Shown here one piece after another: positions 9,110 to 63,835 of a stretch of 64,000 nt of DNA. The DNA lies in the NCBI RefSeq assembly GCF_022869825.1, contig NZ_CP094971.1:311501-375500 (forward strand), read 5' to 3'. Position numbers and translations under genes: made by a program. The stretch comes from Clostridium sp. BJN0001. Lineage in GTDB: Bacteria > Bacillota > Clostridia > Clostridiales > Clostridiaceae. A model generated the notes under the pieces. The model was not told the DNA's origin and did not search any database. It saw nothing but the letters and a program-made list of their open reading frames with translations. Numbering within the stretch: the first letter of the stretch is position 1; each line of letters opens with the position of its first letter.

Positions 9110-9435
9110 AGTAAATGACAAAGCACAAATGACAAAGGACAAAGAGGGATGTTTCTGCTCAAAATCGCAGAAACCTAAATTAATGTAAAAATTGACAATT
9201 GACAATTGACAATTGTGGAAGTTTCTGCTTGAGCGCAGAAACCAAAATATATGAGCTTTCGCTTCAGGCGAAAGCTTTATTTTTTGCGAGAATCGCAAAA
9301 AAACATACAATGAAATTCCGTAGGAATTTCCACCTGAATTATCCATTATCCATTATTAATTCTCAATTGCACAGGATTTCCACCACATTTGTCATTTGTC
9401 CTTTAACAATTTGTCCTTTAACATGTCATTTGTAT
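9110..9435 (+). repeat. Dispersed palindromic repeat, near-complete copy
   Basis: The left terminus (AATGACAAAGCACAAATGACAAAGGACAAA-like units, from 9113) is followed by H1 (GTTTCTGC-TCAAAATC-GCAGAAAC, 9151-9174). Then come ATTGACAATT units and a second H1 with loop TTGAGC (9221-9242). Next are H2 (9254-9276), H3 TTTTGCG-AGAAT-CGCAAAA (9282-9300), and H4 GAAATTCC-GTA-GGAATTTC (9312-9330). Right termini TTTGTCATTTGTCCTTTAAC and repeats of it run to 9435. The element lies between two convergent genes and contains no coding sequence. Confidence 0.9.
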
Positions 9436-17781: not shown

Positions 17782-18072
17782 GTCTGATTCAATTATATAA
17801 CAAATAAACGGAAAGTCAATTATTAATATATTATTTTTTATTTCTAAAGGATATATTATACAAAGTGAGCTATTGGTATGTTCATTTTTTATATATTTAT
17901 TTGATTTATATATAAAAAATACACTTATAAAAAATAAGAATACTTTAATAAAGCATCGTTAATTATAAAAAAGAATATAAAAAATTACAAAATGAATATA
18001 GTGATTTAAAATTAGAGGTTGCTGTTTTACGAGATTTATTATTTAATTTGTTTATTTTATTTAAATATTTGG

Positions 18073-18212
18073 TATAATATAAATAAGAAAAGCTTAGTAA
18101 CTGCGAATTACTAAGCTAATCCTAGAACGTTTTTAGTTTTAGGGCCATTAGATTTATTTAATTTATATTAGAAAATAGACACTACATTTTGTTTGATGGG
18201 GTGTCTTTTTAC
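18073..18212 (+). ncRNA. Candidate small RNA with own promoter and terminator
   Basis: A TATAAT (18073-18078) with a weak TTGTTT upstream precedes a stem AGCTTAGTAA/TTACTAAGCT (about 18091-18116). After a linker, a second hairpin AGACAC...GTGTCT is followed by TTTTT (ending near 18212). The transcript would be about 130 bases and has no convincing reading frame. The stretch 17780-18070 upstream holds no gene. A start-less open frame there encodes EYKKLQNEYSDLKLEVAVL, possibly a coiled-coil gene remnant. Confidence 0.4.
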
Positions 18213-18267
18213 GTTGCCTTAAAATTTATTTTAAAACCTTTTATGTTAAATTATAGGTTAAATTCAC

Positions 18268-18473
18268 AATATTGTGAATTGACAATCCAAAGGACAAAGG
18301 ACAATTGTGGATGTTTCTGCTCAAAATCGCAGAAACTTTATATTTAGCTTTCGCTTCAGGCGAAAGCTTTATTTTTTTGCGAGAATCGCAAAAAAACATA
18401 CAATGAAATTCCTGCGGAATTTCCACCACATTTGTCATTTGTCCTTTGAAAGTTTGTCATTTGTAGTTGTCCT
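18268..18473 (+). repeat. Dispersed palindromic repeat interrupted by IS110 copy 1
   Basis: H1 with loop TCAAAATC (18313-18336), H2 (about 18346-18368), H3 TTTTGCG-AGAAT-CGCAAAA, and H4 GAAATTCC-TGC-GGAATTTC (about 18405-18423) are followed by right terminal units TTTGTCATTTGTCCTTTG and TTGTAGTTGTCCT. The IS110 element starts immediately after the last CT. The rest of the terminus (TTAACAATTTGTCATTT) continues at 20301. Compare the uninterrupted copy near 32600-32660, which reads through the same junction. Confidence 0.85.
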
Positions 18474-18631
18474 CGTATAATAGGTTTGTAATAAGAAATT
18501 TTCTTATTATAAACCTATTTTTATTATATAGAATAAAGAAAGTGTCTTTTTTCCTATGGGAGTTCTCCCGATATTTTGTTACTCATTCTTATCTGCTTTC
18601 TAAATCTATATTTCAAAAAAATATTTATAAA

Positions 18632-18860
18632 GAATTATCCTAATGTTAAAATATCCGTAATGGAAATTAACAAAGGTTACAGCCGCATTTGTCCTGCAAA
18701 ACATTATGTTATTGCCTTTAAAGCTTGCTGCCTAATCAGAATATCAAATTCTGCTTACACAAATGTTGCATCTCCTACCGTAGCCGCCAGCAAGGTATTT
18801 CGGTTTGGATGAATGCTGATTACGCGAGGGTTCAGTTAATATTCTGAATTAGGATAATTC
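18632..18860 (+). ncRNA. Predicted IS110 bridge RNA, copy 1
   Basis: GAATTATCCTAAT (18632-18644) pairs perfectly with ATTAGGATAATTC (18848-18860), closing a 229-base domain directly upstream of the transposase. Inside, CATTTGTCCT (18686-18695), a hairpin with GCAA/TTGC and ACA/TGT pairs (18696-18715), and CTTTAAAG (18716-18723) have the left guide, stem, right guide layout of a target-binding loop. TTTGTCCT equals the left flank plus core, and CTTTAA equals the right flank of copy 1. A second domain is closed by TCAGAATAT (18736-18744) and ATATTCTGA (18839-18847). It contains ATTACGCGAG (18819-18828), which resembles the complement of the element's own left end (CTCGTATAAT). Confidence 0.7.
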
Positions 18861-18900
18861 CTTTTTAACTTCCTTATTATATTTGAAAGGTGGTGATTTT

Positions 18901-20178
18901 ATGAAGAATATAAATTACTTATCAACGCTATTTGTAGGAATTGATATAAGTTCACGAGAAAATGTTGTTTCTGCTTTAAATTTCAATCAAGATTTTTTAA
19001 TTAAAATGAAAGCGGTCGCGAATACGCAGACCGGTGCAAAGCAGCTTGAAACTATGCTTGTTGATGTATTAAAAAATAATATTTATAGATCTGTAATAAT
19101 TGGATTAGAATCTACTTCGTTTTACGGAGTTCACATCGCTAATTTTTTATCAACAAGTGAAATATTAATGCCATATAAACCATATGTTTATTGTTTAAAT
19201 CCAAAGGAGATTGCTAACTACAAAAAATCATTTAATGACCTCAATAAAAATGATGGTATAGATTCATTTGTAATTGCTGATTTTGCAAGGGTTGGGAGAA
19301 TACATATCGAACCATGGCATGGCTCTCAATATCTTGCTTTGCAAAGACTTACAAGACATAGGCTTCATATAGCAAATTCCTTAACAAGAGAAAAAACCTA
19401 TATGCTTTCAAATGTATTTCTCAAATTTAGTGAATTTGCTTTATTAGATGATGAAAAGCATCCTTTTTCAGACAAATTTGGAGCAACTGCATCATCAATA
19501 TTAACAGAATTTTTGTCTACTGAAGATATCGCAAATACTCCCATGGAGGAGCTTGTGAATTTCGTAAATAAAAAAAGCCGAAAACAAATTTCTAATCCTG
19601 AACTTACTGTTGAAATTCTGCAGCAAGCGGCGCGAAACTCGTATCGGCTTGATAAATGTTTATATGAACCCCTTACAACTTCTATTGCCTGTTCTTTTAA
19701 CTGTATTCAGGCATTTCAAAATCAACTAAAAACTATTAACAGAGCTATCGAAAAAACTGTAAAGGGTTTAAATGCTAACGAATATCAAATCTTGATGTCA
19801 ATCCCTGGATTTGGTCCTGTATACTCTAGTGGTATAATCGCCGAACTAGGTAGCATAAAAAACTTTCCTAACAATGATACCGTTGCAAAATATGCCGGTA
19901 TCGTATGGAAGGAAAATCAATCCGGTAGTTTTAAAGCTGAAAAAACACCTATGAGCAAAGCTGGTAACAGATATTTGCGTTATTATCTTATAGAAGCTAC
20001 TACAAGTGTCATAAGACACATTCCGGAATATGAAAAATTCTATAAAAAGAAATACGCTGAAGTTACTACTCATCAACATAAACGAGCACTTGCGTTAACA
20101 TCTCGTAAATTAATTCGTTTGATTTTTGGATTGCTGGCTAAAAATCAACTCTATTCTGCAGATAGTGTAGATAGATAA
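18901..20178 (+). CDS. IS110-family transposase (DEDD recombinase), copy 1
   Basis: This 425-residue transposase has the two family domains. The N-terminal RuvC-like DEDD domain begins with FVGIDISSREN (first Asp), then GLESTSFYG (Glu) and DSFVIADFARVGR (Asp). A helical middle follows. The C-terminal Transposase_20 domain has MSIPGFGPVYSSGIIAELG, with the serine region acting as nucleophile, then KYAGIVW and PMSKAGNRYLRYYLIEA. The frame is open from a TTG at 18883, but GAAAGGTGGTG at 18885-18895 fits the ATG at 18901. It differs from copy 2 by one residue that I can find (Arg versus Lys in NNIYRSVI). Confidence 0.95.
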   Translation: MKNINYLSTLFVGIDISSRENVVSALNFNQDFLIKMKAVANTQTGAKQLETMLVDVLKNNIYRSVIIGLESTSFYGVHIANFLSTSEILMPYKPYVYCLNPKEIANYKKSFNDLNKNDGIDSFVIADFARVGRIHIEPWHGSQYLALQRLTRHRLHIANSLTREKTYMLSNVFLKFSEFALLDDEKHPFSDKFGATASSILTEFLSTEDIANTPMEELVNFVNKKSRKQISNPELTVEILQQAARNSYRLDKCLYEPLTTSIACSFNCIQAFQNQLKTINRAIEKTVKGLNANEYQILMSIPGFGPVYSSGIIAELGSIKNFPNNDTVAKYAGIVWKENQSGSFKAEKTPMSKAGNRYLRYYLIEATTSVIRHIPEYEKFYKKKYAEVTTHQHKRALALTSRKLIRLIFGLLAKNQLYSADSVDR

Positions 20179-20374
20179 CTTAATACATAATTTGGCGAAC
20201 ATACATTCCCGCCAGACTGTATGTCTATTAGTGTTGACTTTTTTTATAAAAATTATTCAAAATTATTTTCATTTTTCTCTTGACCTATTACCAAATTGCT
20301 TTAACAATTTGTCATTTAGTACGTACATTCTCAATTGCAATTTTTCATTTGAAAAAACTTAATCATTAATAACA

Positions 20375-20403
20375 TTGACTAAAAACGCTATGTTAGGTAT
20401 TAT
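20375..20403 (+). promoter_or_regulatory. Promoter of the DUF2325 gene
   Basis: TTGACT (20375-20380) and TATTAT (20398-20403) are spaced by 17 bases. Downstream, GTTAG-agata-CTAAC (within TGTTAGAGATAACTAACCT) is an inverted repeat with DtxR-like half-sites, ending at the ribosome binding site. Confidence 0.6.
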
Positions 20404-20444
20404 TAATATGTGTTAGAGATAACTAACCTGAAAGGAGAATATCT

Positions 20445-20726
20445 ATGAGTGTTGTAATAATTGGAGGACATGACAGGATGGTCTGTCAATATAAGAAAAT
20501 ATGTAAGGATCATAAGTGTAAGGCGAAGGTATTTACAAAAATGCCTGGAAATCTTAAAGGTCAGATAGGAAGTCCTGATCTTATTATATTATTTACAAGT
20601 ACGGTGTCGCACAAGATGGTAAGATGTGCAACAGCTGAAGCAGAGAAGAGAAATGCGTCAATTGTAAGAAGCCATACAAGCAGTCAGAATGCTTTAAATG
20701 AGATTCTTCAAAAAGTCTGTATGTAA
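20445..20726 (+). CDS. DUF2325 family protein
   Basis: This 93-residue protein matches the DUF2325 pattern: VVIIGGHDRM at the start, a short basic/Cys segment (CKDHKCKAKVF), PDLIILFTSTVSHKMVRCA in the middle, and a final helix with SQNALNEIL. The fold is Rossmann-like. Family members occur in many anaerobes, often near metal or redox genes, with no settled function. A single gene with its own promoter and an AAAGGAG ribosome binding site. The DtxR-like inverted repeat in its leader hints at metal control (inference). Confidence 0.8.
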   Translation: MSVVIIGGHDRMVCQYKKICKDHKCKAKVFTKMPGNLKGQIGSPDLIILFTSTVSHKMVRCATAEAEKRNASIVRSHTSSQNALNEILQKVCM

Positions 20727-61756: not shown

Positions 61757-61878
61757 AGCAATTTGGTAATAGGTCAAGAGAAAAATGAAAATAATTTTGA
61801 ATAATTTTTATAAAAAAAGTCAACACTAATAGACATACAGTCTGGCGGGAATGTATGTTCGCCAAATTATGTATTAAG

Positions 61879-63156
61879 TTATCTATCTACACTATCTGCA
61901 GAATAGAGTTGATTTTTAGCCAGCAATCCAAAAATCAAACGAATTAATTTACGAGATGTTAACGCAAGTGCTCGTTTATGTTGATGAGTAGTAACTTCAG
62001 CGTATTTCTTTTTATAGAATTTTTCATATTCCGGAATGTGTCTTATGACACTTGTAGTAGCTTCTATAAGATAATAACGCAAATATCTGTTACCAGCTTT
62101 GCTCATAGGTGTTTTTTCAGCTTTAAAACTACCGGATTGATTTTCCTTCCATACGATACCGGCATATTTTGCAACGGTATCATTGTTAGGAAAGTTTTTT
62201 ATGCTACCTAGTTCGGCGATTATACCACTAGAGTATACAGGACCAAATCCAGGGATTGACATCAAGATTTGATATTCGTTAGCATTTAAACCCTTTACAG
62301 TTTTTTCGATAGCTCTGTTAATAGTTTTTAGTTGATTTTGAAATGCCTGAATACAGTTAAAAGAACAGGCAATAGAAGTTGTAAGGGGTTCATATAAACA
62401 TTTATCAAGCCGATACGAGTTTCGCGCCGCTTGCTGCAGAATTTCAACAGTAAGTTCAGGATTAGAAATTTGTTTTCGGCTTTTTTTATTTACGAAATTC
62501 ACAAGCTCCTCCATGGGAGTATTTGCGATATCTTCAGTAGACAAAAATTCTGTTAATATTGATGATGCAGTTGCTCCAAATTTGTCTGAAAAAGGATGCT
62601 TTTCATCATCTAATAAAGCAAATTCACTAAATTTGAGAAATACATTTGAAAGCATATAGGTTTTTTCTCTTGTTAAGGAATTTGCTATATGAAGCCTATG
62701 TCTTGTAAGTCTTTGCAAAGCAAGATATTGAGAGCCATGCCATGGTTCGATATGTATTCTCCCAACCCTTGCAAAATCAGCAATTACAAATGAATCTATA
62801 CCATCATTTTTATTGAGGTCATTAAATGATTTTTTGTAGTTAGCAATCTCCTTTGGATTTAAACAATAAACATATGGTTTATATGGCATTAATATTTCAC
62901 TTGTTGATAAAAAATTAGCGATGTGAACTCCGTAAAACGAAGTAGATTCTAATCCAATTATTACAGATTTATAAATATTATTTTTTAATACATCAACAAG
63001 CATAGTTTCAAGCTGCTTTGCACCGGTCTGCGTATTCGCGACCGCTTTCATTTTAATTAAAAAATCTTGATTGAAATTTAAAGCAGAAACAACATTTTCT
63101 CGTGAACTTATATCAATTCCTACAAATAGCGTTGATAAGTAATTTATATTCTTCAT
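61879..63156 (-). CDS. IS110-family transposase (DEDD recombinase), copy 2
   Basis: This 425-residue protein differs from copy 1 by Lys for Arg in NNIYKSVI. It has the same domains: N-terminal DEDD (VGIDISS, GLESTSFYG, DSFVIADFARVGR) and C-terminal Transposase_20 with the PGFGPVYSSG serine region. The start is the ATG at 63156 behind AAAGGTGGTG; a TTG at 63174 also opens the frame. The gene is intact, so either copy could mobilise both. Confidence 0.95.
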   Translation of the reverse strand: MKNINYLSTLFVGIDISSRENVVSALNFNQDFLIKMKAVANTQTGAKQLETMLVDVLKNNIYKSVIIGLESTSFYGVHIANFLSTSEILMPYKPYVYCLNPKEIANYKKSFNDLNKNDGIDSFVIADFARVGRIHIEPWHGSQYLALQRLTRHRLHIANSLTREKTYMLSNVFLKFSEFALLDDEKHPFSDKFGATASSILTEFLSTEDIANTPMEELVNFVNKKSRKQISNPELTVEILQQAARNSYRLDKCLYEPLTTSIACSFNCIQAFQNQLKTINRAIEKTVKGLNANEYQILMSIPGFGPVYSSGIIAELGSIKNFPNNDTVAKYAGIVWKENQSGSFKAEKTPMSKAGNRYLRYYLIEATTSVIRHIPEYEKFYKKKYAEVTTHQHKRALALTSRKLIRLIFGLLAKNQLYSADSVDR

Positions 63157-63196
63157 AAAATCACCACCTTTCAAATATAATAAGGAAGTTAAAAAG

Positions 63197-63425
63197 GAAT
63201 TATCCTAATTCAGAATATTAACTGAACCCTCGCGTAATCAGCATTCATCCAAACCGAAATACCTTGCTGGCGGCTACGGTAGGAGATGCAACATTTGTGT
63301 AAGCAGAATTTGATATTCTGATTAGGCAGCAAGCTTTAAAGGCAATAACATAATGTTTTGCAGGACAAATGCGGCTGTAACCTTTGTTAATTTCCATTAC
63401 GGATATTTTAACATTAGGATAATTC
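63197..63425 (-). ncRNA. Predicted IS110 bridge RNA, copy 2
   Basis: This is the inverted copy of 18632-18860 with the same closing stem (GAATTATCCTAAT/ATTAGGATAATTC). The predicted target guides lie at 63362-63371 (CATTTGTCCT on the minus strand) and 63334-63341 (CTTTAAAG). TTTGTCCT matches the left flank plus core of this insertion for eight bases; the right guide matches the right flank only for CTTT. Confidence 0.7.
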
Positions 63426-63583
63426 TTTATAAATATTTTTTTGAAATATAGATTTAGAAAGCAGATAAGAATGAGTAACAAAATATCGGGAGAACTCCCA
63501 TAGGAAAAAAGACACTTTCTTTATTCTATATAATAAAAATAGGTTTATAATAAGAAAATTTCTTATTACAAACCTATTATACG

Positions 63584-63835
63584 AGGACAAAGGGGGATGT
63601 TTCTGCTCAAAATCGCAGAAACCCCAAATAAAAGGACAAAGAACAAATGACAAATGACAAATCAGGATGTTTCTGCTAGGCCGCAGAAACTAAAATATAT
63701 GAGCTTTCGCTTCAGGCGAAAGCTTTAGTTTTTTGCGAGAAACGCAAAAAACCATATAATGAAATTCCTACGGAATTTCCACCTACTTTGTCATTTGTCC
63801 TTTGAAAGTTTGTCATTTGTACTGTTTGTTTTTTC
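63584..63835 (+). repeat. Dispersed palindromic repeat, main part, right of IS110 copy 2
   Basis: GACAAAGGGGG continues from the IS junction into H1 with loop TCAAAATC, terminal units, a second H1 with loop TAGGCC, H2 with loop TTCAG, H3 TTTTGCG-AGAAA-CGCAAAA, H4 GAAATTCC-TAC-GGAATTTC (near 63773) and right termini TTTGTCATTTGTCCTTTG. Together with 61715-61756 it is one complete element. Confidence 0.9.

Follow-up and report, generated by a model that had tools for sequence, protein, structure and literature searches.

The locus described here raises the question of whether an insertion sequence of the IS110 type carries, in its left end, an RNA that directs it into a dispersed repeat of its own host. 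The point of comparison is IS621. The parts of the IS621 reports consulted here describe a bridge RNA with target and donor loops and with left and right guides, the left target guide being identical to the left target plus core and followed by a hairpin and a complementary right guide (PMC11208160, PMC11208158). In the circular form of IS621, the joined ends make the promoter of this RNA, as stated in the part consulted of one of these papers (PMC11208158). The window, i.e., the whole stretch of 64,000 nucleotides that was analyzed, contains two copies of the element under study (Table 1). With high confidence, it is an IS110-type element whose left-end bridge RNA directs insertion into the repeat. 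The original prediction of a repeat-targeting, RNA-guided insertion sequence is supported by the covariation of guides and flanks and by four copies at one repeat.

The element and the repeat at its borders

The genome of Clostridium sp. BJN0001 (G000; 2,688,791 bases in one contig) carries four copies of the IS110 element at about 330, 374, 451 and 518 kb, which differ by 0–1 base over 1827 bp. A comparison of the copies and of relatives places the left end at CT followed by CGTATAAT and the right end at CCAAATTG followed by CT. The non-coding ends comprise 429 nt ahead of the gene and 120 nt behind it, a layout that is typical of the IS110 group and argues against IS1111. The left flanks of the four copies read AGTTGTC, CTTTGTC, ATTTGTC and ATTTGTC, and the right flanks CTTTAAC in three cases and CTTTGTC in one. 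These borders point to scarless insertion at a core common to circle and target, with a single-CT empty site for two of the four copies. This exact empty site, TTGTCATTTGTCCTTTAACAATTT, corresponds to copies L010 and L011 and was found at six distinct unoccupied places among the retrieved stretches, one of them inside the window. No exact empty site for the window copies L008 and L009 was found among the retrieved loci.

All four copies border on one repeat family, in each case at the CT core. The repeat is about 180–200 nt long and, by eye, its copies contain four hairpins that are flanked by TTTGTCA or TTTGTCC heptads. A BLAST search with the repeat beside copy 1 yielded at least 77 pieces (40 of 95 candidates were scored), and 37 of the 40 main repeat copies lie at 270–810 kb, a region that makes up 20% of the genome and also holds all four IS copies. 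Genome counts are above chance, with 154 for TTTGTCCTTT and 21 for TTTGTCCTTTAA compared to 37 and 2 for the respective reversed words. The word TTTGTCCT alone was rejected as a repeat marker, as it is not clearly enriched (255 versus 238 for the reversed word); left and right target together mark the repeat. The expectation that these words recur at the repeats held within the window, where 26 of 42 TTTGTCCT words, including the guide words of both IS copies, lie no more than 200 nt from a repeat hairpin, an area covering 8% of the window.

REP elements are a family of short palindromes mobilized by a RAYT (Y1) transposase. Such an origin of the repeat was rejected on account of its size and its four hairpins and because no Y1_Tnp match was found in the genome. 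Of 68 genus genomes, each with up to 12 candidates scored, only G000 contains the repeat; a single 21-nt match to it was seen in each of two further genomes.

Since all four sites lie in one repeat family, they are not independent draws. If homologous recombination or gene conversion had carried a single insertion from one repeat copy to the others, the four copies would be of little value as evidence on targeting. The flanks are homologous repeats, and L010 and L011 have the same inner 24 bases, as expected from such a spread. However, the flanking words of L008 and L009 are different, as are their places within the repeat, and neither the guide match nor what is seen in relatives (see below) depends on copy number. 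Such a spread is therefore regarded as improbable, and insertion directed by the RNA as the preferred reading.

Table 1. Position, strand and properties of the features of the element and of the repeat within the window.
Feature	Position	Strand	Remark
Unoccupied exact target TTGTCATTTGTCCTTTAACAATTT, another repeat copy	9389..9412	+	
Dispersed-repeat copy hosting IS copy 1	18288..18471	+	four hairpins flanked by TTTGTC words
Copy 1 left target AGTTGTC	18465..18471	+	left-guide match 6/7
IS110 element copy 1 (L008)	18472..20298	+	1827 bp counting one CT core; boundaries from comparison of four copies and relatives
CT core, left	18472..18473	+	seen at either end in all four copies
TATAAT, -10 half of presumed circle-junction promoter	18476..18481	+	
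20-bp A+T-rich hairpin, then T run	18479..18519	+	terminator-like
Bridge RNA domain (guide RNA)	18632..18860	+	closed by 13-bp stem
Left target guide ATTTGTC and core CT	18687..18695	+	guide-flank covariation
Hairpin of target-binding loop	18696..18715	+	98.4% of cells paired, compensatory changes
Right target guide TTTAAAG	18717..18723	+	complement of CTTTAAA
Left donor guide CAAAT	18760..18764	+	identical to right-end CAAAT (20292–20296)
Right donor guide ATTACGCGAG	18819..18828	+	near-complement of left-end CTCGTATAAT, matched by eye only
Transposase gene, copy 1	18901..20178	+	425 aa, DEDD_Tnp_IS110 and Transposase_20
TTGACC, -35 half of presumed circle-junction promoter	20280..20285	+	
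CT core, right, and right target TTAAC	20299..20305	+	
IS110 element copy 2 (L009)	61759..63585	-	1 base unlike copy 1
Transposase gene, copy 2	61882..63156	-	coordinates exclude stop codon
Copy 2 left target CTTTGTC	63586..63592	-	left-guide match 6/7

Fold of the RNA domain and make-up of the element

The 13-bp stem, which pairs 18632–18644 with 18848–18860, is present as described, and the left-guide word ATTTGTCCT, the hairpin and TTTAAAG were found at the predicted positions. Their order follows the IS621 scheme of left guide plus core, hairpin, and right guide complementing core and right target. The domain folds with -57.2 kcal/mol (z -2.55), and only 2 of 200 shuffled sequences fold equally well. 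The homologous left ends of 32 related sequences revealed covariation in support of the fold, with 85.2% paired cells versus 67.8% in shuffles and with changes on both sides of a pair in 277 cells versus 94 in shuffled alignments (0/500 as high); slid versions gave 45–90. The number of additional pair types does not stand out (73 versus 71.2 in shuffles; 149/500). The closing stem exists as claimed but is the least conserved helix among relatives, with 68.9% of cells paired and the weakness mainly in the outer half. RNAalifold replaces its inner part by a pairing of columns 125–128 with 255–258 that uses the same 3' strand; in the counts, the closing stem was used. A word in a second domain had been described as near-complementary to the left end; this word, ATTACGCGAG, is conserved as GCGAGG in almost all of the relatives that were aligned. 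The non-coding end encodes an RNA structure with a target loop and a donor loop. An Rfam search of 17900–20700 gave matches that were all under the gathering scores, none of them relevant.

Joining of the two ends gives TTGACC-17-TATAAT, and TTGACA-17-TATAAT in most relatives. A promoter role of these boxes is presumed by analogy with IS621. Between the presumed promoter and the guide RNA domain sits a terminator-like hairpin, and an inverted repeat at this position is kept in close relatives.

Both IS110 domains of the transposase exceed the curated cut-offs (85.1 and 81.6 bits). Residues D15, E70, D118, D121 and S341-G342 are invariant in six sequences and could be paired by eye with D11/E60/D102/D105/S241-G242 of IS621. 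The best solved relatives by sequence are ISCro4 (E 3.5e-7) and IS621 (phmmer E 1.1e-6), the best stretches being C-terminal, and judged by this distant protein similarity the window's element is not closely related to IS621. With IS621, as described in the parts of the reports consulted, it shares the DEDD recombinase, the C-terminal serine domain, the CT core and the left-end RNA (PMC11208160, PMC11208158), as well as a circle-junction promoter (presumed here) and insertion into a dispersed host repeat, which is REP in the case of IS621. Unlike IS621, it has other guides, another repeat and a 229-nt domain behind a 160-nt leader, and it belongs to a lineage that usually targets Shine-Dalgarno sequences.

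Covariation of guides with flanks

Homologues with different targets had been expected to show matching changes at 18686–18723. Here, the left guide varies strongly and follows its own flank. Over 46 elements and 96 sites, guide and own left flank agree at 5.09 of 7 positions on average versus 3.78 (sd 0.137) in permuted pairs, and 0 of 20000 permutations were as high; the permutation ignores kinship among elements, and the flank is host DNA that is not inherited with the element. The sites comprise 73 of the best 80 of 113 loci and 23 sites from G000, G026, G066 and G114. Seven of the 80 loci (L159, L162, L167, L179, L191, L197, L203) were excluded because the left flank was too short or a left end was not found, and G104, G123, G107, G039 and G142 were excluded as duplicates of named records. 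Fragments from G079, G160, G121, G114 and G104 were left out, and G106, G157, G191, G192, G094, G021, G091 and G052 contributed to the alignment only. Three Selenomonas loci were scored with the guide of one element, two of them belonging to another, which lowers the score. One Selenomonas sp. genome (L176, L178, L195) carries two elements with TTTCCCC and CACCTC guide words and broadly matching targets.

The relationship also holds inside the clade of about 80% identity. Its eight elements reach 5.66/7, a value attained by 4 of 40320 permutations and exceeded by none, and these four are accounted for by two pairs of identical guides; without G000, 4 of 5040 permutations reach the observed fit. 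Among all 46 guides, the best fit to own sites is that of the window's element with 6.33/7, the next being 5.33. The right guide scores 3.51/4 versus 3.21 permuted (0/20000; 42 elements, 90 sites), positions 5–7 being weak (196/20000). For this test, six of the 96 sites were dropped for want of a recognizable right end, and Blautia, MIB8 and INTA were kept, their right ends probably being misplaced. Where the last letters of the right guide are TTAG or TTTAG (four tested elements, from Anaerovibrio, Kineothrix, C. ljungdahlii and C. manihotivorum), the target is CTA.. at 6/6 sites. In 37 of 38 elements, the 5 nt of the left donor guide recur at the right end (variants CAAAT, CAGAT, CAGAA and CAGGT), an agreement inflated by common descent because both compared parts belong to the same element; Blautia, MIB8, INTA and the elements dropped from the right-guide test are outside this set. 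Left guide and left target are thus alike, the right guide complements the right target, both contain the core, and the donor guides match the presumed circle junction, as tested for the left donor and seen by eye for the right.

The fit is not uniform. Left fits of 0–2/7 occur at two G026 flanks, at one flank each of G066 and C. magnum and at single sites of Anaerovibrio and STD2, and several of the poorly fitting sites resemble a one-base register shift. Some right targets contradict their guide, e.g., in UBA7273 (CTATTT versus CTTTCT). Copies 1 and 2 have one left-target mismatch each, and the right guide of copy 2 matches at only 4/7. In some Lachnospiraceae elements and two others, CA replaces CT at the guide core. 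Loci L163–L169 and L171, mostly from Lachnospiraceae, have the guide core CA although CT is present at the ends of the element.

Two loci stand apart. In G026 (L048), a copy is inserted into a second copy of itself, exactly between left guide and CT, which fits the guide, since the guide DNA is a match to its own left half. The partial left end has 230 bases, is identical to that of an intact copy and ends in TATTCTC where the next element starts; later recombination between two identical elements could explain the missing rest of the first copy. The left flank of L158 ends in CATTTCACCAAATTG, 15 bases identical to its own right end, with different sequence upstream. It was rejected as the right end of another copy, as only 15 bases agree, and L158 perhaps represents an insertion at a donor-like site.

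Insertion sequences whose site choice depends on protein only exist, and the transposase itself might likewise recognize the repeat, the guide-like words then being there by chance. This explanation is hardly credible given that left guide and flank covary over 46 elements and also inside the clade of about 80% identity, that the right guide behaves likewise, and that the transposases of this clade are 80–82% identical to the window's, yet their targets differ. Site choice by the RNA is the reading retained here.

Shine-Dalgarno sites of relatives and a probable change of guide

In the relatives (56–82% identical), the guides read as the complement of the Shine-Dalgarno sequence, and a typical flank on the gene strand is AG/GAG..., followed by a start codon. 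Sites were counted as lying at a start codon if ATG, GTG or TTG was found 6–18 nt from the core and opened a frame of 50 or more codons, or of 20 or more when it ran off the sequence end. This applied to 77 of 95 usable sites (of 96), namely 77 of 91 in relatives and 0 of 4 in G000, compared to 521 of 3680 random positions (14%) in the same left flanks. Fourteen of the relatives' sites fail the test, and the unusual L158 is among the sites counted. The orientation of insertion is fixed, with the left end facing the gene; Shine-Dalgarno sequence and frame stay intact and upstream DNA is displaced.

Other IS110 groups are also found at start codons, at 18 of 21 sites in six genomes versus 209 of 2100 (10%). 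The counts are 2/4 in G136, 4/4 in G133, 3/4 in G030, 3/3 in G034, 3/3 in G152 (one with TTG only) and 3/3 for a second IS110 in G000; four of the six genomes have elements with similar ends and may represent one clade. Four G091 copies that have no left end, and G160 with two copies, are outside this count. The second, distant IS110 of G000 has a 470-codon frame that is 25% identical, and its three copies (L012, L013 and L014 at about 650, 2039 and 1465 kb) are all found at CCTCCTT, with a start codon following directly. The left end of this second element contains ATCCCTCCT, which fits its own three sites.

Guides of close relatives read AATTCTC, TATTCTC, ATTCCTC, ATCTCTC and ATCACTC. The window's ATTTGTC is two or three letters away from these and one letter away from ATTTCTC of a more distant relative. 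In a tree of 42 transposases, from which four short or broken ones were omitted, the window's element branches as the sister of six elements (98/93) whose guides are of the Shine-Dalgarno type, and elements of this type are also found further out. The nearest relatives aim at Shine-Dalgarno sites, so that the repeat looks like a derived program. A ribosome-binding-site program appears to have been changed to the repeat by two or three letters, the direction of change being inferred; few guide letters seem to have redirected the element in nature. Within its lineage, whose guides read ribosome-binding sites, it stands as an exception. The reverse course, with the repeat as the ancestral target and the Shine-Dalgarno programs of the relatives as derived, would agree with the position of the window's element as sister to the close-relative clade rather than nested inside it. 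It is nevertheless very improbable, as outer elements of the tree and other IS110 groups also read Shine-Dalgarno sequences and the repeat was found in only one of the 68 genomes of the genus.

A second switch is possible in Mogibacterium (L170), although it rests on one insertion and on an unsure place in the tree. The guide GGTCCCC matches the flank TGTCCCC at 6/7 within the word GGTTCTCTGTCCCC, which occurs in this genome at 12 places within one mismatch (reversed word, 0). The only exact GGTTCTCTGTCCCC is the IS flank, and GTCTCC is found at ten of the eleven remaining places; the L170 guide thus matches this flank more closely than it matches the other members of that repeat. The two repeat-type elements are not grouped on the tree. 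It is likely that several diverged groups of Bacillota IS110 elements settled on Shine-Dalgarno guides and that the window's element, possibly together with that of Mogibacterium, shifted to a dispersed host repeat through few substitutions in the guide.

The sequences themselves show the ends and the core, the agreement of guides with targets, the covariation of the RNA, the Shine-Dalgarno sites of relatives and the place in the tree; the steps from RNA to recombination are taken over from the IS621 system. By this analogy, the element would excise scarlessly to a circle (RE-CT-LE), joining TTGACC and TATAAT into a promoter from which the RNA could be transcribed and then bound by the transposase. 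The target loop with ATTTGTC-CT and TTTAAAG would call for approximately TTTGTC-CT-TTAA, two words that are frequent at repeat ends, and transposase and RNA would insert the circle by recombination at the CT core of the repeat, always with the same orientation. The usual guide of the lineage complements the Shine-Dalgarno sequence, which would lead to insertion directly upstream of a gene, leaving ribosome-binding site and frame whole, and few guide substitutions in the window's genome would have shifted the element to the repeat.

ISPpu9 belongs to the IS110 family. Like the window's element, ISPpu9, ISPpu10 and ISPa11 insert into abundant extragenic host repeats; as far as the consulted part of the report goes, their target is REP (Pseudomonas and others; PMC1525189), whereas here it is a multi-hairpin TTTGTC-heptad repeat, found in 1 of 68 genus genomes, and no Y1 (REP-type) transposase was found in the genome. 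The natural seekRNA reprogramming of ISEc11 and ISXne4 likewise concerns relatives whose guides have changed and whose targets have changed accordingly, with two elements and two different targets in the part consulted (PMC11187229); in the present IS110-type group, a dispersed repeat appears to have replaced ribosome-binding sites as the target. Bridge RNA guides, natural reprogramming and REP insertion are all covered by the consulted parts of published work (PMC11208160, PMC11208158, PMC11187229, PMC1525189). Repeat-targeting IS110 elements are already known, and the Shine-Dalgarno program with its apparent switch is a larger result than the first observation. Shine-Dalgarno targeting by IS110 elements was not found in the paper listings and texts searched, and it may be visible in published logos. 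In the text consulted, the main part of the bridge RNA paper contains neither 'Shine' nor 'start codon', 'ribosom' occurs twice in its full text, and the target-logo section of the seekRNA paper (PMC11187229) makes no mention of such targeting.

The lineage provides a natural experiment in guide evolution, in which close recombinases carry guides for two classes of sites with many scorable insertions. It also supplies many natural guide-target pairs for the targeting rules of bridge RNAs, including one self-insertion into a guide. If the reading is true, Shine-Dalgarno guides, which recognize a short, conserved non-coding word ahead of very many genes, would permit landing in most genomes while sparing reading frame and ribosome-binding site, and with the change to the repeat the element would have been retargeted naturally, away from genes and towards more neutral sites. 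This suggests that the evolution of RNA-guided insertion sequences favors abundant words of low harm, such as ribosome-binding sites and private repeats.
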